Shown here piece after piece: positions 4,345-27,102 of a stretch of DNA of 34,558 nt. The notes below the pieces were generated by a model. It was not told the origin of the DNA, made no database searches, and saw only the letters and a list, made by a program, of their open reading frames with translations. The position numbers were made by a program, and so were the translations under genes. The DNA is from a virus: the IMG/VR virus record IMGVR_UViG_3300027779_000086, positions 1 to 34,558 of that record; one strand, written 5' to 3'. How positions within the stretch are numbered: position 1 is the first letter of the stretch; each line of letters opens with the position of its first letter.

Positions 4345-5078
4345 CCGCATTTGACCGAGCATGGTTGGTGGTCAAAGCCCCCATTGATGTTTATTCAGAT
4401 CGTGGACGGGTGAGAGAAATTACCGATGATGAAATGTTGTATAGTGGTGGTGATTTTAGAGATGAATCACGCTATTATTCAGACGATTTGGATATTGCTT
4501 TGCATTATGCTTTGTATGGTTCAGCCGTTCCTTATTCCGATAGGGGCGGGCGAAGAAATACCGAAGGAAAACCAATACCATCAATGCGAAGAACAATACC
4601 AAGCATTAGTGTGATTGACCCAAGAGATTACCCAGAAGATGATAGAGGTATAATGCAAGAAGATCCTTTCAGCCCCGGAATAGGGGTGATGGATGATGAA
4701 TATAGCGGGAATAAATTATCGCATGATAAAGTCATTGAATTATTACAAGAACACATCAATGAAGGCAGATACAAAAATATTTTGGGTGGAACAACAGGAG
4801 AGTTATTCAATGATGAAGAAAGAGGGAAACACGCAAATGACGCTTTAAGCCGTTTGATTGCATATAATAAGAATGAATCACTTGAAAGGTGGAATCCGAA
4901 TCCACCGAGTTATGAAATGGGTGATGATGTATTTAGAACCGCCGACTATGACGATTTCATAGAAACACTTGGGCATGATGATTCAATGCCGGATATACTC
5001 GGAGAGTGGAATGATTTAGAAGATTGGCAACGAAAAGCGGCGATTGAGGCGGGATATAGCGAGGATGATTGGATATGA
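4341..5078 (+). CDS. tagged protein, weak ADP-ribosyltransferase-like N-terminal half
   Basis: The protein has 245 residues. Tag TAFDRAWLVVK at 2-12, then AP. AAGGAGG lies upstream of the ATG, which overlaps the previous stop. The region from residue 30 contains MLYSGGDF, then RYYSDDLDIALHYALYGSA, then ISVIDPRDY. The order (Y-S-G strand, aromatic-Ser-x-x-x-x-A-x-x-YA helix, short strand) resembles the core of phage and toxin ADP-ribosyltransferases, where the second block binds NAD. A clear catalytic Glu motif is not seen, so this is a weak call. The C-terminal half is acidic and Trp-rich (WNDLEDWQRKAAIEAGYSE) and unrecognised. Confidence 0.75.
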   Translation: MTAFDRAWLVVKAPIDVYSDRGRVREITDDEMLYSGGDFRDESRYYSDDLDIALHYALYGSAVPYSDRGGRRNTEGKPIPSMRRTIPSISVIDPRDYPEDDRGIMQEDPFSPGIGVMDDEYSGNKLSHDKVIELLQEHINEGRYKNILGGTTGELFNDEERGKHANDALSRLIAYNKNESLERWNPNPPSYEMGDDVFRTADYDDFIETLGHDDSMPDILGEWNDLEDWQRKAAIEAGYSEDDWI

Positions 5079-7195: not shown

Positions 7196-7250
7196 TAAAT
7201 CTTTTTGGAGAATTTCTAATCAATTTTTATTCTGGTTAGCATTACGATAG
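7182..7250 (+). CDS. 22-residue aromatic micro-ORF
   Basis: It would need the TTG at 7182, overlapping the previous frame. The product (NKVDKSFWRISNQFLFWLAL plus Arg) resembles that of 7062-7133 in its V-D...F-W-L-A-[KR] pattern. It is either a degenerate duplicate or a small membrane-active peptide. Low confidence. Confidence 0.25.
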   Translation: MNKVDKSFWRISNQFLFWLALR

Positions 7251-7285
7251 ATAATCAGATAAACAAAGGTAGTTTAGGGACTTAC

Positions 7286-8380
7286 ATGGCAGTACCTAAT
7301 ACATTGCAAGATGCAATTGCCATAAGTAGAGATTTAACTGGTAAAAGAAATATTCCTAGTTACATGAAATGGTCAGGAAATAAGAATCATCCTGAATATT
7401 TGAGAGGTTATCGAACAGCGTTTAGAAATGCAGGAGGTAATAGACGATATGTTGATCCATTTGCCGGAAGTGCTAGTTTGCCGTTCAATGTTGTTCCGGG
7501 CAAAAAAGCGTTGTTAGGTGATTTTGATGAGATGAATATTGGTTTTCATAATGCAGTTAAAGATGGTACAATAGGTAATGAATTAGATTTTTCAAATTTT
7601 ATGCAAGATGGTGTTATAAATCGAAAAGACTTTTTTGAAAGATTAAGGGGTGGAACGCCAAGCGGGAGGATTTACCCCCCAACTGGAAAAAGACCATATT
7701 CTTTAGATGGTAGTTGGCCTCCTAAAAAAAACTCATTGAATTACATAGTAAACGAATTAAATCAGAAAAATATCACTCCTGAATCTAATCTTGGTGCAAT
7801 AAAAGCATGGGCTAAGATGCAAAATGCAGGGTTTAGAGGAGATGCAAGGTTTAACAAAAAACCCCATAAAGCAAAAGGTGTTAAAAGATGGTATAATATA
7901 TCTGCCAATGAAGAAAATTATAAGCCCGTCAAAAGAAACTATCAGTCATATCAGCCTTTAATGGAAAACTTTGATTTTATTAATAGGGATGCTTTTGACT
8001 TTTTGAATAATGAAGAATTGAATGACAATAAAGATTTTCTAGTGGCTGATTCTCCTTATTGGAAAGAATCAGGTAATTATGATCATGGCTTTGACCATAA
8101 AAAGTTAGCAAGAACTTTAGGTTCAATGAAAGATGATGGTATGCCGATAGTAGCAACTAATTCCGCACTTGCAATGCCTTTGTATCAAGATGAAGGTTTT
8201 GATACATTTTTGATGAATAGAAGAAACAATTCAGGGGCAAAAAGCACATCGAGAGGAGTCAAACCAGAAATGGTTGCAGTTACGCCCGGTTTAATCTCCG
8301 AGCGTGAATGGAAAGGGTCATTAAAAAAATCTATTCAAATGTCTATTTTTGAGCAAGCATGGAATACAATTTTGATATAG
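7286..8380 (+). CDS. D12-class DNA adenine methyltransferase with C-terminal tag
   Basis: The protein has 364 residues. Motif I/X features are MKWSGNK (27-33) and YVDPFAGSAS (55-64), the SAM-binding loop. The catalytic motif is VADSPYW with DSPY at 255-258, a variant of the usual DPPY; a late strand is MPIVATNSA. This order matches Dam-like N6-adenine methyltransferases. Ser for the first Pro occurs in functional relatives, so activity is plausible. Unlike its neighbours it has no N-terminal tag. The last 13 residues (from Met352, SIFEQAWNTILI) are the tag, lacking the final Lys. The likely role is protection of viral DNA or, if packaged, modification at entry. No restriction partner is visible. 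Confidence 0.85.
   Translation: MAVPNTLQDAIAISRDLTGKRNIPSYMKWSGNKNHPEYLRGYRTAFRNAGGNRRYVDPFAGSASLPFNVVPGKKALLGDFDEMNIGFHNAVKDGTIGNELDFSNFMQDGVINRKDFFERLRGGTPSGRIYPPTGKRPYSLDGSWPPKKNSLNYIVNELNQKNITPESNLGAIKAWAKMQNAGFRGDARFNKKPHKAKGVKRWYNISANEENYKPVKRNYQSYQPLMENFDFINRDAFDFLNNEELNDNKDFLVADSPYWKESGNYDHGFDHKKLARTLGSMKDDGMPIVATNSALAMPLYQDEGFDTFLMNRRNNSGAKSTSRGVKPEMVAVTPGLISEREWKGSLKKSIQMSIFEQAWNTILI
8339..8380 (+). other. C-terminal copy of the FDxAW tag on a methyltransferase
   Basis: Codons for SIFEQAWNTILI precede the stop. The copy begins with a methionine (residue 352), as if an N-terminal tag of a former downstream gene had fused to the methyltransferase end. The alternative is deliberate placement at the C-terminus because the N-terminus forms the SAM site. 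Confidence 0.75.
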
Positions 8381-8414: not shown

Positions 8415-9656
8415 GTGCCTGACCCATTCATAAATGCTTGGGAAATAGCCAAACATTATTCTGGCCATGTATCGAAAGGTATCGTATTTGGCGGTAAACA
8501 AACAAATGATATTAATGAAGTAGATGAGATGATAAGGAATGTAATGATTACAAATCCTAAACATAAACCTCCTTTACCGTGGAAAACTTCGGGTAAAAGA
8601 AGAGGTATGCCGTGGAAAAAAATGTATGAAGCAAGAATGGCAGGTAAAGACCCAAGTATCCCCTTTATAGAACAAACTAAAGGATTTAGAGGATCTAATG
8701 AAATGCTTCCAACTGTATTAAATTGGCAAGGTGGGAAAACACAGATACAACCCCAAATGAGAGCATTGGCTGAAAAGTTAGGTGTAAGTCATTTAAGACC
8801 TGCTGAAGTATTTGGTGGTAGCGGTTCTTTTGTCTTGGGTCAAAACAGGAATAAAGGATTCTTCAATGATTTGAATCCTGATTTGGTAACAACAATGATG
8901 CATTTGAAAGATGGCATGAAAGTAAGTAAAATACCTCAAAATCAAGAAGAATTGGAACGTGCAGTTGATACGTTAAATGAATTAAGGTACAGAAGAGATG
9001 TTCTTGGTGAAGATTTAGATTATGGTGAGGAACGACAATTAGTTGAATTACTTGTTGGTTCTAATATGCAACATTTTGAAGGTATGTTTAAATACAAAGA
9101 TTGGGATAAAGAATATCCTAACGCAGTACCAAAAGGATATACTGAAGGATTCATTAAAAGGCCATCTTTTAGAAAACCGGGCAAAGATGTAAAACCGGGC
9201 GATAAAAACTTTAGAAGGTTTCCTTTTGATGCAGGTTCAATAGACTTAACAAGATATGCAGATCGTATGAAAAACTATGAAATACATCAAGGTGATTTCA
9301 AAGATGCCGCTAATTTACTAGGGAGAGATGATTTATTGTATTTAGACCCGCCATATATTAGTAGAAATATAGATTACGGCGGAACAAAAGAACAGAAAGC
9401 AGGAAAAGATTTCGACCAACTTCAAAGAGATGTAATTAGAGTAGGGGAGCAACATGAAGGCCCTTCTATAATATCTAATTATATGTATGGAAAAGATAGT
9501 GGGGAGCCGCTTTATGAATATGTTGATTCTTTATTAGATGCAGGTTATGATATACATCCGTGGCTTAGAAAACCAAAGGCAAATAATAAGGCACAAGCCG
9601 AATTATTAGCATTAAGGGGTTTCCCTAAACAAGAAAATCTAAATAAATATTCTTAA
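8415..9656 (+). CDS. tagged D12-class DNA adenine methyltransferase
   Basis: This 413-residue protein starts at a GTG (8415) and opens with a tag (DPFINAWEIAK, 3-13). Methyltransferase motifs follow: LNWQGGKTQIQPQM (about 107-120), VFGGSGSFVLG (132-142, SAM loop) and YLDPPYISRNIDY with DPPY at 311-314, the N6-adenine catalytic motif. Length and order fit the Dam/D12 family with an extended N-terminal region of about 100 residues. It lies 34 bases after the other methyltransferase but is not a close copy (DPPY against DSPY, and a different target-recognition region), so the two probably have different specificities. Packaging into the virion would parallel phage P1 DarB; that is inference. Confidence 0.87.
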   Translation: MPDPFINAWEIAKHYSGHVSKGIVFGGKQTNDINEVDEMIRNVMITNPKHKPPLPWKTSGKRRGMPWKKMYEARMAGKDPSIPFIEQTKGFRGSNEMLPTVLNWQGGKTQIQPQMRALAEKLGVSHLRPAEVFGGSGSFVLGQNRNKGFFNDLNPDLVTTMMHLKDGMKVSKIPQNQEELERAVDTLNELRYRRDVLGEDLDYGEERQLVELLVGSNMQHFEGMFKYKDWDKEYPNAVPKGYTEGFIKRPSFRKPGKDVKPGDKNFRRFPFDAGSIDLTRYADRMKNYEIHQGDFKDAANLLGRDDLLYLDPPYISRNIDYGGTKEQKAGKDFDQLQRDVIRVGEQHEGPSIISNYMYGKDSGEPLYEYVDSLLDAGYDIHPWLRKPKANNKAQAELLALRGFPKQENLNKYS

Positions 9657-9706: not shown

Positions 9707-9979
9707 ATGACTATCGAGAAAGAAAGAGAGTTAGGTACTTGCACCTCTTGTAAAGCGAGAGGTAGAATTTGGTCATCAAAAACTGCTGATGCATATCCAT
9801 ACGATACTGAAAAATTGTGCAAAAAATGTTCTCAACCTAAAATTTTAACTAAGGCTTTTGATATGGCTTGGGATGTTGTTAAGGCAAAGGCGAAATGTCC
9901 TGAATGTAAGCGGGTTTTCGATTTAATGAATGAAAAAGATGCCCAAGAGTGGTATCATGGGCATGATTGTGAGGCATGA
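9707..9979 (+). CDS. zinc-module protein with a central tag
   Basis: The protein has 90 residues. An N-terminal zinc ribbon (CTSC at 12-15, CKKC near 38-41) is followed by the tag (KAFDMAWDVVK, 49-59) in the middle of the chain, then a second zinc-type motif CPECKRVFD ... HGHDCE (about 64-89). The tag therefore sits as a linker between two small metal-binding domains. The downstream neighbour is another tag-plus-zinc protein. No catalytic residues are recognised; roles in nucleic-acid or protein binding are equally possible. Confidence 0.78.
   Translation: MTIEKERELGTCTSCKARGRIWSSKTADAYPYDTEKLCKKCSQPKILTKAFDMAWDVVKAKAKCPECKRVFDLMNEKDAQEWYHGHDCEA
9851..9883 (+). other. internal copy of the FDxAW tag between two zinc modules
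   Basis: The codons encode KAFDMAWDVVK at residues 49-59 of the 90-residue zinc protein. This is one of the clearest cases of a tag that is neither N- nor C-terminal. Confidence 0.8.
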
Positions 9980-9981
9980 TT

Positions 9982-10134
9982 ATGACCGCATTCGACAAGG
10001 CTTGGGGTATTGTAAAGGCTACACCATGCAGAAAATGTGGCAAACCTTGTGACTTTGGAATGCGAGGAGATGGCCCTGCAAAACAAGTAGATGAAGGCGA
10101 TGAATTAGTCCCTTACTGCGGAAATTGTGATTAA
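9982..10134 (+). CDS. 50-residue tagged zinc-ribbon protein
   Basis: A short gene lies two bases after the preceding stop. Residues 2-12 are the tag (TAFDKAWGIVK); the rest holds CRKCGKPC (16-23) and YCGNC (45-49), a probable zinc ribbon. It is essentially tag plus zinc knuckle, like the product of 5690-5878. The tag and the tight spacing make this gene convincing despite its size. The next gene overlaps it or starts two bases after it, depending on the start chosen. Confidence 0.7.
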   Translation: MTAFDKAWGIVKATPCRKCGKPCDFGMRGDGPAKQVDEGDELVPYCGNCD

Positions 10135-10135
10135 G

Positions 10136-10570
10136 ATGGGTGATAACACACATGAATGCACCGTAGGTGGAAATGCTTACGCAGTTATGTGGGAAGGAAA
10201 AGACGATGACAATGGTGGTTTAATCTATGGAATCGAATACATGGATGGTGAGGAAGTTTCCGATGTTGAGTGGTTTAAGACGAGTGATGAAAGAGATGCT
10301 GAACTTAAACAATACATATCCGATGCAGGGTGCGAAGGAATAATGAAACCAATTGATTTCAGTAAATCTGATGACCGATTATTCAACAAGGCTTGGAGTG
10401 TCGTGAAAGGCGATGATTTTGAGCGAAAGCAGTTTGATGCCAAGATGCATAAAGGTGGCAAGAAACATTCTTGCCCCACCTGCAAACAACCCAAGCGACT
10501 GTCAGACGAACAGAAAAAGCGTAGATACCAATGCGATGAATGTGCAGACAAAGAAGAGGGAGCGTATTAG
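10136..10570 (+). CDS. two-domain protein with internal tag and C-terminal zinc ribbon
   Basis: The protein has 144 residues from the ATG at 10136, which follows GTGATTAAG, a Shine-Dalgarno-like leader seen before several genes here (5884, 18028, 29277); a GTG nine bases earlier is possible. Residues 1-75 form a beta-rich acidic domain (AYAVMWEGKD, IYGIEYMDG) of no known family. The tag (LFNKAWSVVK) lies at 82-91. The C-terminus has CPTCKQP and CDECAD, a four-cysteine ribbon within a basic context. Module order (domain, tag, zinc) matches 9707-9979. Confidence 0.75.
   Translation: MGDNTHECTVGGNAYAVMWEGKDDDNGGLIYGIEYMDGEEVSDVEWFKTSDERDAELKQYISDAGCEGIMKPIDFSKSDDRLFNKAWSVVKGDDFERKQFDAKMHKGGKKHSCPTCKQPKRLSDEQKKRRYQCDECADKEEGAY
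10373..10408 (+). other. internal copy of the FDxAW tag
   Basis: The codons encode DRLFNKAWSVVK at residues 80-91. At DNA level the AAGGCTTGGAGTGT core is shared with the N-terminal tags at 10573 and 10963, so this cluster of tags arose by local duplication. Confidence 0.78.
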
Positions 10571-14248: not shown

Positions 14249-14989
14249 GTGGGATATATGAGTTCCACAGTTCTTGCAGGACATATATTACTTGCTTCAG
14301 TTAATGCAATTAAAACTGTATATAGAAATTTAAAGCCATTTAAAATTGGAGTTTATGGCCCAAGTATGACAGGTAAGACTACATTAGATCAGTATCTTAC
14401 TGTACCGGGTGATATTGAGCCTATTCCCTTAAATTTTAGAACCACACATCCGACAATCAATGGTGTTACTCAATTACCTAAAGCACATCGTAAGCAAATA
14501 AAATGGAAAAAAGAAAGAATCCCAGTTTCTAGTGCTGACATAGCAGGACAGTCACAATTCAAGAATCTTTGGATTGAAGATATGTATGGTAGAAAAGTTA
14601 ATATTGTATTTTTTATGGTAGATGAAAGAGTCTTAACGAATCCACAATTCAAATTAGAAGCAGTTGCATCTTTGAAGTATATTGTAGATAATATCACTAG
14701 ACACGATGTTACTAAGACTTTAAGCCGGAAATCAAAAAAACATTTGAAGAAAGGTTTCAAACCAGATCTTTTTTGTTTCTTAATTAACAAAATGGATGTA
14801 TGGTGGACTCCTCAAGCGGCTTTTCTTTGGGAACGAGGATTACAACGGGAACATCCTATTGTTGCACCTTTTAGACATGAACTAAGAAGGTTGAGAACAG
14901 CAGGAATACGGGCCGAAGTAGAGGCTATTTCTGCTCAACACGGAGTCAATGTAGAGAAAGTTATGATTAAAATGATTGAAACTATTTAG
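14249..14989 (+). CDS. small Arf/SRbeta-like GTPase
   Basis: The protein has 246 residues from a GTG at 14249 (an ATG at 14258 is an alternative). GTPase signatures are complete: Walker A GPSMTGKT (37-44), switch II DIAGQ (97-101), and NKMD (180-183) preceded by the hydrophobic strand LFCFLI. A late EAISAQHG may be the G5-like region. The D-x-x-G-Q form groups it with Arf/Rab/SRbeta-type P-loop GTPases rather than translation factors. The N-terminal 28 residues are hydrophobic/amphipathic, suggesting membrane association. It directly follows two small membrane-protein genes. Small Ras-fold GTPases are rare in tailed viruses; the role is unknown. Confidence 0.82.
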   Translation: MGYMSSTVLAGHILLASVNAIKTVYRNLKPFKIGVYGPSMTGKTTLDQYLTVPGDIEPIPLNFRTTHPTINGVTQLPKAHRKQIKWKKERIPVSSADIAGQSQFKNLWIEDMYGRKVNIVFFMVDERVLTNPQFKLEAVASLKYIVDNITRHDVTKTLSRKSKKHLKKGFKPDLFCFLINKMDVWWTPQAAFLWERGLQREHPIVAPFRHELRRLRTAGIRAEVEAISAQHGVNVEKVMIKMIETI

Positions 14990-19946: not shown

Positions 19947-21941
19947 ATGGCATATTATAATCCTGATGATTTTCGTATATCGAAAAGTTTTGTCACTATG
20001 GATATAGATAACTTCATTCAAAGTGCAATGGGTATGCCAGACGCAGAACCCTTACAGACAATGATGACTCATTTTGTAAATAAGAATCATAATTTTAATG
20101 ATTTTGAAGGCCAACAATCAAATCCATATGAAGAAGAAGCAGTAGAGATGGCAATAAGAAAAGGAGTTATTGATGAGGCAACAGGGAGAATAATACATGC
20201 GGGGCCAAATGCGCCGGGTTATGAAAATGCTCGCAAAGAAGCATTGCGTAAAGGAAAGCCTTTGGTAAATCAAGCGGCCAGAAATCAAAATGAATTAAAT
20301 AAAGGAATTTGGCCTGAAGTGCCTCTTCCATTTATGGAAAATGGTCAAGACGCAAGTAGTTGGCCGTTACATCAAGCATATAGTGATGGTGAATCAGCAA
20401 CTTTGAAAGAACAGACTAGAGATTTTGAGGGTAGACCAAGAAAGGGGCCAACTGCATTTAATCCATGGAAAAATGGCAAAATTGTAACTAATTTAATGTC
20501 CTCTTCAAATACAGATAGGAAGGGAGAAGGCACTTTTCAAGAAGGATGGGCAAGATGGTATCAACATGGAGCAATTAAAGATAATTTAATAGAACAAAGA
20601 CATTCAAAGGCAGGGAAAGTTATTAATTCCGCAACTTATAGAATCCCTGCTCATTACGTTCATAAAAATGTAATGCACCTCAATGATAGAAACCATACGC
20701 AACAGGCTGTAAATTATGTTAAACAATTACAAGAAACATATCCAAATATGTCTCATGATGAAATAAAAAAATCATTATTAAATCAAAACTTTATGTTTGC
20801 AAATTCTCATCATTCATTTCATAATTATGATTCAGTACATGGAAGAATTGATAGAAAACTAAGTGATAACAAAGAAATCCGAGATGGAAATGCTCAACCT
20901 AATGATGATGATTTAGAGACAGGAAGAGATGCAGAGCCACTTAATAGTATTAGTGCAGACAATTCGATCTTTCATCCCGAATCTAGGATAGGTGAGTTGA
21001 TAGGAAGAGGAAGGGGAGTATTACCTTTAAGTACCGATAAAATAGATAAGACTTTTAATAGACATATGAAAAAGTATTATGATATGGATGATGAACAAGT
21101 TTATCAAATGATAACAGATGTTCTTGCAGGTAGAAAATCAAATGGACATAAATATCGAGGTAGTACCGCAAAAGAACGATTGGCTAATGCGTTATATGAA
21201 CATGAAATGGATAGGCATGGAGGGAATCTACCTCCTGACCATCATTATACTGGCCCTACAATCCCAGTTGAAGGTAGAGGTTTTACACCTCCTCCAATAG
21301 AAAACACAGGAGGTACAGGGACGGCCCCTCCCGACACAAGAGGCAACCCATTGGGAATTCCCGGTAATTTACCTACAATTGATACAGAACATCCTGAATT
21401 ACCCCGCGTTACGGGAGGTTATGTGCCTCCGGCTACCCTCCCTGTTGCTCGACCTAATATACCCAATATTCATACAGACCCCAATGTTGTTAATGCCCTT
21501 CGTAATAAAAATGCAAATATACCATTGAATGTTCGGAGTAATGTTATGGGGCCAAGCGGAGACACTAATTCCTCTAACAGGTCATCCTCTTTTGCGGCTT
21601 TGCTTGCAAATCATAGAAGGAATATTTTTCCTAATGCAGGTGTAGGAGATAGTTTCTTAGATAACGAAAATAATTCTAGCACTTTAAAATCTGAGATAGA
21701 AGATTATATTGAAGATGTGCAATTGCAATTAGCAAAGACTGTAATAGATGATTTACACAATATAAGGAAGATGGATTTAGATTCTAATTATGATATAACT
21801 ATATTGGCAAGTCAAATTCAAAGACCTACTAATGATATAATTTCGATATACCATACAAGAGGAGATTGGAGAAATATCGCAAAGTCATTTGGCATTGAAC
21901 ATCGTCATGTGCAATTAATTAAGGTGGCTTTACATGAATAA
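19947..21941 (+). CDS. large structural-type protein with C-terminal HTH-like end
   Basis: The protein has 664 residues from the ATG at 19947 (GGTGA 5 bases upstream; a GTG at 19938 is an alternative). His/Asn-rich N-terminal two-thirds include many aromatic and His residues (YRIPAHYVHKNVMHLNDRNH, about 229-248). A Pro/Gly-rich flexible linker follows (about 430-540), then a helical C-terminus ending IYHTRGDWRNIAKSFGIEHR ..., which has helix-turn-helix-like spacing. No enzyme motif is seen. It shares composition with the 1112-residue protein at 30669, as if both were part of one virion substructure. The start of the next gene overlaps its end by 8 bases. Confidence 0.7.
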   Translation: MAYYNPDDFRISKSFVTMDIDNFIQSAMGMPDAEPLQTMMTHFVNKNHNFNDFEGQQSNPYEEEAVEMAIRKGVIDEATGRIIHAGPNAPGYENARKEALRKGKPLVNQAARNQNELNKGIWPEVPLPFMENGQDASSWPLHQAYSDGESATLKEQTRDFEGRPRKGPTAFNPWKNGKIVTNLMSSSNTDRKGEGTFQEGWARWYQHGAIKDNLIEQRHSKAGKVINSATYRIPAHYVHKNVMHLNDRNHTQQAVNYVKQLQETYPNMSHDEIKKSLLNQNFMFANSHHSFHNYDSVHGRIDRKLSDNKEIRDGNAQPNDDDLETGRDAEPLNSISADNSIFHPESRIGELIGRGRGVLPLSTDKIDKTFNRHMKKYYDMDDEQVYQMITDVLAGRKSNGHKYRGSTAKERLANALYEHEMDRHGGNLPPDHHYTGPTIPVEGRGFTPPPIENTGGTGTAPPDTRGNPLGIPGNLPTIDTEHPELPRVTGGYVPPATLPVARPNIPNIHTDPNVVNALRNKNANIPLNVRSNVMGPSGDTNSSNRSSSFAALLANHRRNIFPNAGVGDSFLDNENNSSTLKSEIEDYIEDVQLQLAKTVIDDLHNIRKMDLDSNYDITILASQIQRPTNDIISIYHTRGDWRNIAKSFGIEHRHVQLIKVALHE

Positions 21942-24369
21942 TAATGTCGTATATGATGATATTTTTGCTAAGGCATGGGATATGGCTATCAACAAGGCTA
22001 TGACTACTCCTGAAGCGGCACGTAGACAAGCAGGAACTAATAGATTTGGGCGGAAAGGTTTAGATTTAGATAGGAAAAAAGGGGTAGATTCAGTTGGAGA
22101 AGCCGCTAAATTTGCAGATCGCCTTCCAGATCCTAGTGCTAGTGCTAGTGCCGACCCTCCTGTTGACCCTAATACTAATGCTCAAACCGGGCCTTACAAT
22201 GATGGGTCTGCATCTAGCCGACTCAAAAATTTAAAAACGACTGGCGGAGAAACTGACGCTGATCCAAGATTAGGGGCGCGAGTTTCAGCAGGAATGCAAA
22301 ATGCGGCAGGGAAAATAACAGACGTAGTAAACAATGTGTCTGCTAAAGGACAGCAATATGTGCAAGGTGCCAAAGATATGGCTACTGATGCATGGAAAGG
22401 AAATCAACTTGATAGTTCAGGAGAAGTTCGTGGGCCGGGACTGAGGGATGCAAAAGATGCAGGTATAGATTATGCCGCATCAAAATTACCGGGTATGAAA
22501 GAGGCCGCAAAAACCGGACTCCAAGGTGCAGGAAATTTAGCAAGTGCGGGAGTTAAAGGAGGAGCGCAATTAGGTATGGCCGGAGTTAAAGGAGGAGCGC
22601 AATTAGGTATGGCCGGAGTTAAAGGAGGAGCGCAATTAGGTTTCGCCGGAGTTAAAGGAGGAATCAATGCGGCCAAAGGCTTGGCAAACATGACATCTAA
22701 TACAATAGGCAGTTCACAAGGAGGCTCTCATGTATCAGGTCAGGGCATGATGAATAATGTTAAAAATTTAGCAACGGGACTTATGGAAACAAAAGGCAGA
22801 GGAGGAATTGTTAATTCTGCAATAAGAGGTCAAAATAAAAGAGGTGGCATAAAAGATGAAGTTTCAGATGAAATGGCATCAACTCAAAGAGATAACAGGC
22901 AAGGCAGAGTTACCGCAGATATGTTCAAAAGGCCGGGAAATCAATCTGTTTCTTTGGAAAATAACCGTGGCGATGCTAATAATCCTGTTGACTCTCTTGA
23001 AAATCCCGCTACTACTGCTGTTGACCCTAATGCTATTGCCGTTCCTGCTAATGCCCCTCCTGCTAATACCCCTCCTGCTAATGCCCCTCCTGCTAATGCT
23101 ACTACTAATGCTCCTGCTAATTCTACTGCCACAGGAGGTGCAGGTTTCGGTGGCGGAGGTGCAGGTTTCGGAAATAGCGCAACTACTCTTCAAGCAGGTA
23201 ATGCTCCTGCTAATACCCCTCCTGCTGACCCTAATGCGGCAAGAGATCCTGCACGAGATAAAGCAAGAATGCTTCAAGTAGATAATGCCAATGCAAAAGC
23301 AAACACGAAAGGAGGGATAGGTACAGGATTATTATCTAACGTGGCGACAATGGGAATGTCAGGCATAGCAAGAGGTGCGTATAATGCAAGTCAAAGAAGT
23401 AAAGGAAGGGATGAATTATCAACATTGGCAAAACATGCAGAATTTGTATCTATACGAAGTTCATTACTAAAAAATCAATATGCTAGGCAAGTTACTCCCG
23501 GCGATAGAGATGGAAATGGAATATTGGATTCGGAAGAACAGAAAACCACAGTAAAATTAAATCCTGACGGAACGGTTGCATCCAAAGAAACGAAAATTAC
23601 TCAAAAAACACCATCCAAAGAAGAACCTAAAAAACCACAAGGCGACCCTAATGACATGAGAATGGATGCGGATAAAAATGATGGAAATTTAAATAAAGGT
23701 TTTAAAGATGTATTAGGCAAATACAGACAAAAGAGAGCAGAAAAAGAATTGAACAGATTACATGACAGAAGAAAACAAACTCAAAGAGGTTTTGACTTTT
23801 TATCTCCTGACCGAATACAATTAACTCCTAAAGAAAAAGAAAGTAACGACTTAGATTTTATAGATAAAAATAGAAAGACATACAATACTGCCGAAGAGGG
23901 ATTTACTAGGAATTTGGAAAATGAGTTGGGGTCGTCAGTAATAGATAAATTGAAATTAAATCCGCCAAAGATGCACCCTAGACCCTCTCCCGATTCGACT
24001 CCTTATTCTGCTGATCATTACATTAATGCACAGAGAAATGTTGGGAGAAGAGGTGTTGATGGTTTTAATCCAGATGATGCTATTCAAAACTCAGAGCCTT
24101 GGAATGTAGTAGAAAATCCATTTGCCAATCCGTTTTATAATACAAATGCTTTTTCACTTACAAAGGAACCTAATCACGGAATAAATGAATCTCACACTTT
24201 AGTAGATGAGTTCTTGAAGGCAGACATATCTGAACCCGAAGTAAAATTATCCGGTTTTGATACTAATAAGGGCGATGACCTTTCTTTATTGCCCGCATCG
24301 GTGTTTGCAAACAATGACGCACCTGTTGCTGATAACATGAGTTTATTGCCAACAGGGTGGAAGCAATGA
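21934..24369 (+). CDS. 811-residue tagged, Ala/Gly/Pro-rich virion-type protein
   Basis: Tag copy IFAKAWDMAINKAM lies at residues 10-23, after a short acidic lead. The body is modular: an Ala/Gly-rich region with an 11-residue repeat (GVKGGAQLGMA, about 206-247), a Pro/Ala/Asn repeat (NAPPANTPPANA, about 370-400), Gly-rich stretches, and an EF-hand-like loop DRDGNGILDSEE (about 528-539). Basic helical segments (about 590-650) and a Pro/Asp-rich C-terminus follow. No enzymatic domain is recognised. Its size, tag and position just before the terminase suggest an internal head or scaffold-like protein that could serve as the docking partner or largest cargo. DNA repeats (22549-22674, 23044-23100) lie inside it. 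Confidence 0.75.
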   Translation: MNNNVVYDDIFAKAWDMAINKAMTTPEAARRQAGTNRFGRKGLDLDRKKGVDSVGEAAKFADRLPDPSASASADPPVDPNTNAQTGPYNDGSASSRLKNLKTTGGETDADPRLGARVSAGMQNAAGKITDVVNNVSAKGQQYVQGAKDMATDAWKGNQLDSSGEVRGPGLRDAKDAGIDYAASKLPGMKEAAKTGLQGAGNLASAGVKGGAQLGMAGVKGGAQLGMAGVKGGAQLGFAGVKGGINAAKGLANMTSNTIGSSQGGSHVSGQGMMNNVKNLATGLMETKGRGGIVNSAIRGQNKRGGIKDEVSDEMASTQRDNRQGRVTADMFKRPGNQSVSLENNRGDANNPVDSLENPATTAVDPNAIAVPANAPPANTPPANAPPANATTNAPANSTATGGAGFGGGGAGFGNSATTLQAGNAPANTPPADPNAARDPARDKARMLQVDNANAKANTKGGIGTGLLSNVATMGMSGIARGAYNASQRSKGRDELSTLAKHAEFVSIRSSLLKNQYARQVTPGDRDGNGILDSEEQKTTVKLNPDGTVASKETKITQKTPSKEEPKKPQGDPNDMRMDADKNDGNLNKGFKDVLGKYRQKRAEKELNRLHDRRKQTQRGFDFLSPDRIQLTPKEKESNDLDFIDKNRKTYNTAEEGFTRNLENELGSSVIDKLKLNPPKMHPRPSPDSTPYSADHYINAQRNVGRRGVDGFNPDDAIQNSEPWNVVENPFANPFYNTNAFSLTKEPNHGINESHTLVDEFLKADISEPEVKLSGFDTNKGDDLSLLPASVFANNDAPVADNMSLLPTGWKQ
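22549..22674 (+). repeat. 33-base tandem repeat (three full copies plus a partial)
   Basis: Units start at 22549, 22582, 22615 and 22648. The first two are identical, the third differs near its end (TTTCGCC), and the fourth diverges after 15 bases. They encode GVKGGAQLGMA. Near-identity at DNA level indicates recent expansion. Confidence 0.9.
23044..23100 (+). repeat. 15-base Pro/Ala-coding tandem repeat
   Basis: About four copies of CCTGCTAATGCCCCT-type units, with further degenerate copies to about 23235, encode ANAPP/ANTPP. It is in frame and probably a flexible linker. Confidence 0.85.
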
Positions 24370-25793
24370 CTCTTTCCGCTAATAATAAAATGATAGAACT
24401 CACATCCCAAGTAGATTGGGAAATGGGTAAGCGTGACTTTAAATTCTTTTTTGAAGATATATGTGGTTTCCAATTAGCAAACTTCCATAAAGAATGGTAT
24501 GAAAATGCTCAAAATAACAATAAGGTATGCGTCATAGCAAGTCGTGACCATGGTAAATCTGTATTCTTCCGAGTATATCTGTTATGGAAAATGGCATATA
24601 ATCCTAATACAGAAGTATTGTTTTTCAGCCATAGTCAGCATCAGTCAATAGATCATATGGGTAAAATGAATGAATTGATTGAAACAACTCCTGCATTACA
24701 ACACCTAAAACCTGCAAGAGGTTGGGCAAAGCAATTATTCCGTATGACTAACAAATCTTCTATTCGTGCTATGTCTATTGGCAAAGCGGTGAGGGGCGCG
24801 CATCCTGATATAGTGGTACTAGATGATATTCTATCTAGTGAAGCAGATACGCAATTAAAAGCAATATCTACATGGTTTTATACTGCTTTACTTCCGGTTC
24901 TTCATCACACAGCGCAAATGTGTGTCGTAGGTACGCCGTTTTCTTTTACCGATTTATATTCAGAATTAAAAAGTCTTGACGGTTATTGCGTAAGAGAATA
25001 TCCTGCAATTGATGAAGCCACAGGTGAACCTCTTTGGCCTGAACGATGGAATTTAGAAGCACTGAACACAAGAAGAGGTGAAATGACATCTATTGCATTC
25101 ACTCGTGAATATCTTTGTAAACCAATAGCAAGTGATTCTAGTTTATTTCCTGAAGAGATGCTTGAAAGAGTAAAGGATGAGACATTGGCTTTGACATATT
25201 ATCCAGAACCGGATGAAGCATTGAATTATTATATTGGTTGGGATCCTGCAATAAGTGCAGATAGAAGGGCAGATTATACTTGCATGATAGTAATAGGCAT
25301 GAATGAGAATAGACACAAGAGAGTAGTGCATGTTCATCATGAAAAGAATATGGATTTCGGGCAACAGATAGATAAGATAGTAGAATTAAATGCAAGATTT
25401 AATCCTGTTATTATAGAACTTGAAACAAACAATTTCGCTATGGCATTTAATCAGGTATTGAAAGAAATAGGAGACTTACCTGTAAAACCATTCAATATGA
25501 GTCGCATGAAAAAGGAAGCATTAATTCATACATTGCAATTACATTTTGAAAGGCAACATCTGATGATTCCATACAAAGATGAAGGTGCAACAAGAAGGCA
25601 CATGAATGCTTTATTAAATGAATTATCTATGTTCACTATGCTAGATAATGGTAAGATGGAAAGCCTTGGTGCCCATGATGACATGGTGATAGCCCTAGCA
25701 TTATCAGTACAAGCAACTAAAGAATATAGGGAAAATATAATTATCCTAGATGCTCAGACATGGCAAAAGAGGTTGGGGTGGATAGATGGATAA
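24366..25793 (+). CDS. terL: terminase large subunit
   Basis: The protein has 475 residues from the ATG at 24366 (ATGA overlap with the previous gene; a GTG at 24357 is an alternative). The ATPase domain shows Walker A ASRDHGKS (58-65) and Walker B DIVVLDD (148-154). The RNase H-like nuclease domain shows WDPAIS with Asp293 and RRADYTCMIVIG, a central VIIELETNNFAM strand, and the final acidic pair in GAHDDMVIALAL (Asp438, Asp439). The length is normal for the family. It cuts and pumps viral DNA into the prohead through the portal, encoded two genes on. This is the firmest functional call in the window. Confidence 0.96.
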   Translation: MTLSANNKMIELTSQVDWEMGKRDFKFFFEDICGFQLANFHKEWYENAQNNNKVCVIASRDHGKSVFFRVYLLWKMAYNPNTEVLFFSHSQHQSIDHMGKMNELIETTPALQHLKPARGWAKQLFRMTNKSSIRAMSIGKAVRGAHPDIVVLDDILSSEADTQLKAISTWFYTALLPVLHHTAQMCVVGTPFSFTDLYSELKSLDGYCVREYPAIDEATGEPLWPERWNLEALNTRRGEMTSIAFTREYLCKPIASDSSLFPEEMLERVKDETLALTYYPEPDEALNYYIGWDPAISADRRADYTCMIVIGMNENRHKRVVHVHHEKNMDFGQQIDKIVELNARFNPVIIELETNNFAMAFNQVLKEIGDLPVKPFNMSRMKKEALIHTLQLHFERQHLMIPYKDEGATRRHMNALLNELSMFTMLDNGKMESLGAHDDMVIALALSVQATKEYRENIIILDAQTWQKRLGWIDG

Positions 25794-27102
25794 AATATAT
25801 ATTAAGTCAATTATAGGGATAGAAACATTAAGCGATTCGATAAATAAGAATGCGGCTTTGTTAGGTGCGGCAGTTATACCACATGTACTTGAAATGGCTC
25901 AAAATAAATTAAAAGACAGTACAAAAGAAGTAGAAGATGCGGAGAAGAATTTAGCCCAAGAAGAGTTAAATGCTCAACAACCACAAAAACAAACTCAAAC
26001 ACCTAAAACTCCCGATATAAGAGATGGTGCAAGTATTGAAGGTGATACTTCAACTAATAGTGGAACAGAGTTACCTACTGGTGCCCCTCTTCCTCCTACT
26101 GATCCTAATGCAATTACAAATTCAATGGATAGGAAATGGTTTGTAACCAGTTTTGGAATGTCTGGAAGGGAATTAACTGAAATATTAATAAAAGCATCAG
26201 ATATTAAAACATTAGATGCAATACAACCATTACTCAAATTAGAAAAGGAAGCGATATTAAATCATTTTAAAGGAGTAGATTCTTCACTATTAAATCAAAT
26301 ACCTCTTACGGATTTAGATTTTGATTCGTTAAATAAAAATTCAGATAGATTAGATTTACCTTTTAGAAGATTTGTAAAATCATGGACTTCATCAAATGAA
26401 GAAGGAAAGGTCAAAGCGGAATTATTATGGCGCAATACTTTGGATAAGTCAGAAAGACTATCTAATCGTGAGAAAACAATATTGTTAAAGTGTAAAAGTA
26501 CAATTATTGAAAGAGGTGCATTAAATGCGCAAACATTACGAAGTTATGGTATTCAAGCAAGTGCCGCAGAAATATCTTCTCTAATCAAATCTCATGGGTT
26601 TTTGTATGATATCATGTCCGTGGGTCAATTTAGTAAATCAGTAGGTAGAGGTTTATTTTATGATGTTAAAAGAAACGATGTGTTATTGAAAAATGTAGAT
26701 AGTTTCTTAGCAGGGCTAATTGATAATCATAGTGTATTTTCTATTGATGCAAGATATAATCCTCGTATCGAATTAAGTTTTTATGCACCTACTGCGCCTT
26801 GGTATGCTGACGCATTAAAAAAGGAATTAAATGTTGATAATATACATGCTAAAGGAATAGGATTAGAGATATTAGGGGAAGCGGCGGTTTCAAAGGCATT
26901 ACAATTAGCATCACCACTCATAACCAAAAAATCTTCCGAAGCGTTCAAAATGATGAAAGCGTTGCGAGGAGATAAAAACGCATTGATTGTTATGGCATAT
27001 GAAGGAATGAATTCAAAACACCAAATTGCTTTATTAAAGAAATATGATATGTCTGAAGAAGAATTTTTTGAAATTAAAAAGGAGGTTATGATACATGGTT
27101 GA
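25786..27102 (+). CDS. LAGLIDADG-derived protein between terminase and portal
   Basis: The protein has 438 residues, overlapping terL by 8 bases and the portal gene by 8. The N-terminal part is helical, then Pro/Gln/Thr-rich (about 70-105). From about 225 come helices like a DNA-binding domain (SNREKTILLKCKSTIIERGA, RSYGIQASAAEISSLIKSHG). A LAGLIDADG-type block FLAGLIDNHSVFSID (307-321) follows, with the downstream strand/helix RIELSFYAPTAPWYADALKK, typical of homing-endonuclease half-sites. The eighth motif position, normally the catalytic Asp/Glu, is His315, so nuclease activity is doubtful. No intein splice residues are present. A domesticated DNA-binding packaging factor is inferred. Confidence 0.8.
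   Translation: MDKIYIKSIIGIETLSDSINKNAALLGAAVIPHVLEMAQNKLKDSTKEVEDAEKNLAQEELNAQQPQKQTQTPKTPDIRDGASIEGDTSTNSGTELPTGAPLPPTDPNAITNSMDRKWFVTSFGMSGRELTEILIKASDIKTLDAIQPLLKLEKEAILNHFKGVDSSLLNQIPLTDLDFDSLNKNSDRLDLPFRRFVKSWTSSNEEGKVKAELLWRNTLDKSERLSNREKTILLKCKSTIIERGALNAQTLRSYGIQASAAEISSLIKSHGFLYDIMSVGQFSKSVGRGLFYDVKRNDVLLKNVDSFLAGLIDNHSVFSIDARYNPRIELSFYAPTAPWYADALKKELNVDNIHAKGIGLEILGEAAVSKALQLASPLITKKSSEAFKMMKALRGDKNALIVMAYEGMNSKHQIALLKKYDMSEEEFFEIKKEVMIHG

Follow-up and report, generated by a model that had tools for sequence, protein, structure and literature searches.

What is the role of a gene that lies between the gene of the terminase large subunit (TerL) and the portal gene of a marine virus, and that encodes a LAGLIDADG-like motif with a histidine at its catalytic position? 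The question arises from a stretch of 34,558 nt (IMGVR_UViG_3300027779_000086, 1-34,558), which is called the window here; the gene under study is called X. An earlier note on this DNA had interpreted X as a domesticated LAGLIDADG domain, fixed between terminase and portal, that serves packaging by recognising DNA without cutting it. Our analysis partly supports this interpretation. The fold, the lost acid, the fixed gene order and the inheritance stood; homologues with an intact motif and a winged-helix domain had to be added. The features of the locus are listed in Table 1.

Table 1. Features of X and its neighbours, with positions in the window
Feature	Position	Strand	Description and evidence
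terL, terminase large subunit, 478 aa	24357..25793	+	PF17289 E 1.2e-10; phrog_38 E 7e-76
Gene X, 438 aa	25786..27102	+	ATG start; predicted coil, disordered linker, helical domain, winged helix and degenerate LAGLIDADG domain
terL/X overlap, 8 nt	25786..25793	+	ATGGATAA; start codon of X within the end of terL; read from sequence
N-terminal long helix, residues 32-63	25879..25974	+	AlphaFold2 model
All-helical domain, residues 113-224	26122..26457	+	model, pLDDT 89
Winged-helix domain, residues 227-298	26464..26679	+	model; pI 9.7; invariant K268, S269, H270, G271, L273
Single LAGLIDADG-fold domain, residues 299-383, C-terminal helices to ~438	26680..27099	+	model, Foldseek, VIA-align, profile-profile comparison
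Motif FLAGLIDNHS, residues 307-316	26704..26733	+	H315 replaces the catalytic Asp (I-CreI D20)
AAGGAGG, Shine-Dalgarno-like, for portal	27079..27085	+	within the 3' end of X, 9 nt ahead of the portal start; sequence
X/portal overlap, 8 nt	27095..27102	+	ATGGTTGA; start codon of portal within the end of X; read from sequence
Portal protein, 502 aa	27095..28603	+	PF04860 E 5.9e-11; phrog_18178 E 4e-55; HVTV-1 portal E 3e-48

Gene order, inheritance and virus group

X is a free-standing open reading frame, and TerL and portal on either side of it are both full length and uninterrupted; therefore X is not in an intein or intron setting, as had been claimed. The overlaps at its two ends likewise fit the suggested coupling of X to both neighbours.

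For the count of gene order, loci were grouped by distinct portal. In 122/122 distinct marine loci X was flanked by TerL and portal, and the six loci without X belonged to five haloviruses and one methanogen virus. In scans that set out from X, a portal lay downstream in 81/81 and 74/74 cases, and TerL, where it could be assessed, lay upstream in 81/81 and 71/71, the second figure of each pair referring to the sister clade described below. Small ORFs are inserted on one side of X in some loci, but X stays. The order terL-X-portal, which the earlier note had asserted as fixed and proposed to check, was thus present in every marine locus examined. X is a single-copy gene in 9/9 records of 39-107 kb. 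Two apparent irregularities turned out to be artefacts: a locus seemingly without TerL (L228) does contain it, and a seemingly split X (L073/L219/L194) traced back to one contig with a broken frame.

Pairwise distances of X correlated with those of TerL (r 0.83) and of the portal protein (r 0.91) no less closely than TerL with portal (r 0.81), and the correlation was at most 0.18 in 2000 permutations. The dN/dS of X ranged from 0.05 to 0.19 by region, with 0.07 for the helical domain, 0.05 for the winged helix and 0.08 for the LAGLIDADG domain. Judged by these sequence comparisons, X is vertically inherited and under purifying selection. X is encoded beside terL and portal and kept there; neither sporadic presence or movement nor insertion into an intron, an intein or a host gene, as expected of a mobile homing endonuclease gene, was found.

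The closest named viruses to the window portal are haloviruses such as HVTV-1 (27% identity). An X homologue (53%) was detected on a 106-kb virus-like contig (L149, CACGHY010000002.1) in the Poseidoniales single-cell genome AG-422-I20. The Poseidoniales homologue and the halovirus kinship are what one would expect of a magrovirus from Marine Group II archaea (PMC10768690, PMC10160649), a group in which the window virus would accordingly be placed. A search of 292 genomes of the class of AG-422-I20 with the X-family profile found AG-422-I20 alone, and the sister-family profile found none. The L149 contig may offer a direct host link.

In haloviruses, terL and portal either enclose an HNH gene or have no gene between them. 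HVTV-1 carries HNH gene 111 there (PF01844 E 4.5e-8), and the slot gene is absent in HCTV-1. A search with the sister-clade profile revealed no copy of X anywhere in HVTV-1 and HCTV-1. In record L271, haloviral HNH relatives of HVTV-1 gene 111 recur around the packaging genes (2355-2864, 4413-4892, 7198-7461, 9961-10245). The haloviral HNH gene thus behaves as a mobile gene: one virus has it repeatedly within its locus, and HCTV-1 lacks it.

Predicted structure of X and its sister clade

X and its close relatives gave no usable match in direct searches of Pfam, PHROGs, NCBIfam and PDB sequences. No member of the window clade matches the LAGLIDADG models of Pfam, and no X-family sequence scores above the Pfam cut-off; the motif alone is therefore weak evidence, and the family was recognised solely via structure and the sister clade. 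A tblastn match of X to the portal/head region of a Pseudomonas phage was weak (E 0.3) and was judged to be due to chance. Residues near 118-150 gave a weak profile match to Pex14 (E 0.3).

An AlphaFold2 model of X, built on a 47-sequence alignment, reached a pLDDT of 78. In this model the N-terminal helix is followed by a disordered linker (residues 65-112, pLDDT <50) and an all-helical domain with a conserved WF.DNFGM stretch and invariant E153, P173, D176, D178, K198, W200 and W215. No fold match for the helical domain was found in the PDB and among viral models. For residues 227-298, VIA-align gave Z 8-9 to winged helices, among them Zalpha and MarR-like ones. The C-terminal domain shows the order alpha-beta-beta-alpha-beta-beta-alpha over residues 304-378, with the motif helix first, and more helices follow up to residue 436. 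When the model was compared with the PDB by Foldseek, LAGLIDADG homing endonucleases took all of the first 43 places (E 7.3e-4 and probability 1.00 for the best), and the top matches were all I-CreI-like. VIA-align gave Z 10.0 for I-SceI (84 residues, 2.6 A) and Z 8.9 for I-TnaI.

Viruses of a sister clade surfaced in a portal scan reaching toward the haloviruses. Their TerL is ~37-45% identical to that of the window, and between their TerL and portal lies a protein that is X-like in architecture and in most cases 400-490 aa long. A scan with the sister family returned at least 446 relatives, of which 80 were kept, 74 of them distinct. The motif reads AAFIDSDGYI in this clade and AGFLDADGYI in the L304/L307/L313 branch, and position 8 is D in 74/74 sequences. 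Compared with the PDB, the sister-clade profile detected I-CreI variants at E 6e-7, with its Asp aligned to I-CreI D20; an invariant Lys aligns with I-CreI K98, in a register counted by hand on the alignment. Profile-profile comparison of the window family with the sister family gave E 4.7e-9 and 96% probability over 276 columns, which span the helical domain, the winged helix and the LAGLIDADG domain and set His315 opposite the sister Asp. In three sister-clade loci X is fused C-terminally to a Nudix hydrolase domain (L277:241-2484, L279:635-2485, L280:1061-2908), which in L279 matches NCBIfam PRK10546 (E 4.5e-9), and several small ORFs stand between these fused proteins and the portal.

By predicted fold and by profile, X is thus a member of the LAGLIDADG fold superfamily. 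The model, Foldseek, VIA-align and the profile link to the sister clade all confirm the earlier description of X as LAGLIDADG-like, and the comparison of a predicted structure with homing endonucleases, suggested in the earlier note as a check, recovered the fold. X comprises more than this domain, however, and the earlier note had overlooked the basic winged helix ahead of it. With a pI of 9.7, the predicted winged helix is the basic part of X, and DNA is more likely bound here than by the LAGLIDADG domain; the latter, at pI 6.9, is close to neutral and, because it is not basic, may serve protein contacts instead.

A winged helix preceded by a coil also raises the question whether X is the small terminase (TerS), a DNA-recognition subunit with an N-terminal oligomerisation coil to which a LAGLIDADG domain was added. 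A relative of the haloviral HTH gene that precedes terL was not found in the marine sister-clade loci, which leaves room for a TerS-like role, and the ICTV profile of the Aoguangviridae refers to TerS/TerL when it describes the reference genome (PMC10768690). TerS protomers, however, are usually of 15-21 kDa, with an N-terminal HTH and a helical-hairpin oligomerisation core (PMC9611059), whereas X has 438 aa, follows terL and carries its winged helix centrally. No hairpin core was recognised in X, its helical domain has no structural match to TerS, and no small-terminase signature was detectable. We therefore regard a TerS identity as rather unlikely.

State of the catalytic position

The acid at position 8 is the defining residue of LAGLIDADG proteins. 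It is the metal ligand of known LAGLIDADG enzymes and the single acid conserved among them (see also PMC6950143). In X the stretch FLAGLIDNHSVFSID contains the motif, with His315 (codon 26728-26730) at position 8. The earlier claim that His315 occupies the catalytic acidic position is borne out by the sister-clade profile, which sets the catalytic Asp opposite it. X of the window thus lacks the acid that an active LAGLIDADG endonuclease carries at this position, while the sister clade has it.

Across 98 distinct sequences, residue 315 was G in 58, N in 21, S in 7, D in 6, H in 4, Q in 1 and E in 1. As this table includes two sister-type sequences (L307, L313), 96 are of the magrovirus type, and 5/96 of these have an acid at position 8, compared with D in all 74 of the sister type. 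The Lys equivalent to I-CreI K98, invariant in the sister alignment and present as K382 in the window, is K in 41/98 sequences of the table. D or E at position 8 in magrovirus-type X was observed in L161/L104, L057, L319, L328 and L337, three of which also have the Lys. Having retained or regained the acid, these five proteins might still cut, and cleavage may hence not be lost in every magrovirus. Homologues with intact catalytic residues and a mobile distribution had been named in advance as refuting the domesticated reading. Such intact homologues do exist, in the sister clade and in a few magroviruses, but they occupy the same slot and are not mobile.

On a TerL tree whose deep root is unresolved, with branch lengths up to 5, the acid at position 8 needs 5 changes. 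The tree gives no direction; because the acid is the defining LAGLIDADG residue, we infer that it was lost, not gained, in the magrovirus clade. The Foldseek matches of X include 1t9i, a D20N form of I-CreI solved together with DNA, and N is the second commonest residue at position 315. Losing the acid thus need not abolish DNA binding.

X of the window clade could nevertheless cut through a shifted metal site formed by the acid at motif position 6 (D313) and K382. Position 6 is D or E in 97/98 sequences, for which we have no explanation, and K382 is present in the window. The known metal ligand is position 8, however, and K382 is not conserved, so that we consider a shifted site improbable.

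Proposed role of X

WhiA (DUF199) of Gram-positive bacteria has a degenerate LAGLIDADG fold whose metal-binding residues are gone, and binds DNA through an HTH domain (PMC3781837). A degenerate LAGLIDADG domain joined to an HTH-type domain is common to WhiA and X, which makes WhiA the nearest evolutionary model and would allow X to be a WhiA-like transcription regulator in a structural operon. WhiA, however, is a cellular transcription factor with two N-terminal LAGLIDADG repeats and a C-terminal HTH, whereas X has its winged helix ahead of a single LAGLIDADG domain, an additional helical domain and a place in a viral packaging operon. No WhiA Pfam match was obtained, so the WhiA comparison suggested in the earlier note did not hold in domain order, repeat number or family match. 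The locked position between TerL and portal suits packaging better than regulation, and there is little chance that X is such a regulator.

X shares its fold with I-CreI, I-CvuI and I-MsoI, and the sister clade shares also their motif and the catalytic Asp and Lys; X differs from these enzymes in that it is neither mobile nor borne by an intron or intein, has His at position 8 in the window and contains two further domains. That X is an ordinary free-standing homing endonuclease, placed between terL and portal by chance, could appeal to this fold, to the canonical motif of the sister clade and to the mobile look of the HNH genes that haloviruses carry at this place, but is very improbable for a single-copy gene that is never missing and never elsewhere in more than 120 distinct marine loci, overlaps its neighbours, has distances congruent with theirs and stayed under strong purifying selection after the acid was lost. 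HVTV-1 gene 111, in the equivalent slot of a related virus, has an unrelated fold and, unlike X, is of a type that behaves as mobile.

The reading we favour, with fair though not high confidence, is that X is a fixed and vertically inherited accessory of the magrovirus genome-packaging module, which descends from a LAGLIDADG endonuclease, binds DNA and helps to load the motor. The packaging role is deduced here, and gene position alone is no proof of it. X would be made together with TerL and portal, bind DNA mainly via its basic winged helix and pair through the LAGLIDADG helix, while the conserved helical domain would contact TerL and/or portal; in this way it could help to load viral DNA onto the motor. 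Sister-clade X probably also cuts (a concatemer or initiation cut), comparable to the HNH protein gp74 for HK97. In the window clade, X would bind only, and it is probably the TerL nuclease that makes the cut.

HK97 gp74 promotes cos cleavage by terminase (PMC9410871, citing Kala et al. 2014). As a nuclease-fold accessory of a packaging machine it is the nearest working model for X, but its fold is unrelated, X of the window has no catalytic acid, and the role of X is putative. A LAGLIDADG claim has been made for another genome-packaging protein, the HCMV terminase subunit pUL56, for which a LAGLIDADG-like motif was proposed (PMC6950143). This concerns a short motif only, whereas X is supported by the predicted fold as a whole and by a sister family with the canonical motif.

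Domesticated LAGLIDADG proteins are few; examples are WhiA and HO, the mating-type endonuclease of yeast (PMC7282813). Magroviruses and related viruses rank with the most abundant viruses of the ocean (PMC10160649). In the literature searched, which did not extend to the main magrovirus papers, we found no description of an X-type gene and none of a domesticated LAGLIDADG protein that is fixed in the packaging module of a virus. More tentatively, and with somewhat less than even confidence, marine archaeal tailed viruses may have a LAGLIDADG class of packaging proteins. In one very large clade these would be active and cut at directed sequences next to TerL, and in the magroviruses they would be disarmed and serve as loaders that bind DNA. 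To our knowledge, genome recognition and cutting for packaging in archaeal tailed viruses are largely unknown. The packaging machinery seems to have recruited a selfish cutter as one of its parts, and, if this is true, the two clades capture how a homing endonuclease became a component of genome packaging. As disarmed and canonical forms share the slot, binding and cutting could be separated experimentally with natural sequences.

Some further observations concern other proteins of the window. The portal contains four Cys (CxxC...CxxC, residues 85-102) that are invariant between magrovirus-type and HVTV-1 portals and suggest a zinc-ribbon insertion. An 811-aa ORF (21934-24369) precedes terL; related viruses match few of its segments, chiefly the last ~90 residues, and most of the remainder diverges. 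Positions 14249-14989 encode a 246-aa small-GTPase-like protein (PDB 8oun, a GTP-binding protein, E 1e-4; Roc E 6.5e-4, under the Pfam cut-off), which is unusual in a tailed virus. Two adjacent genes (7286-8380 and 8415-9656) encode a pair of D12-class adenine methyltransferases.
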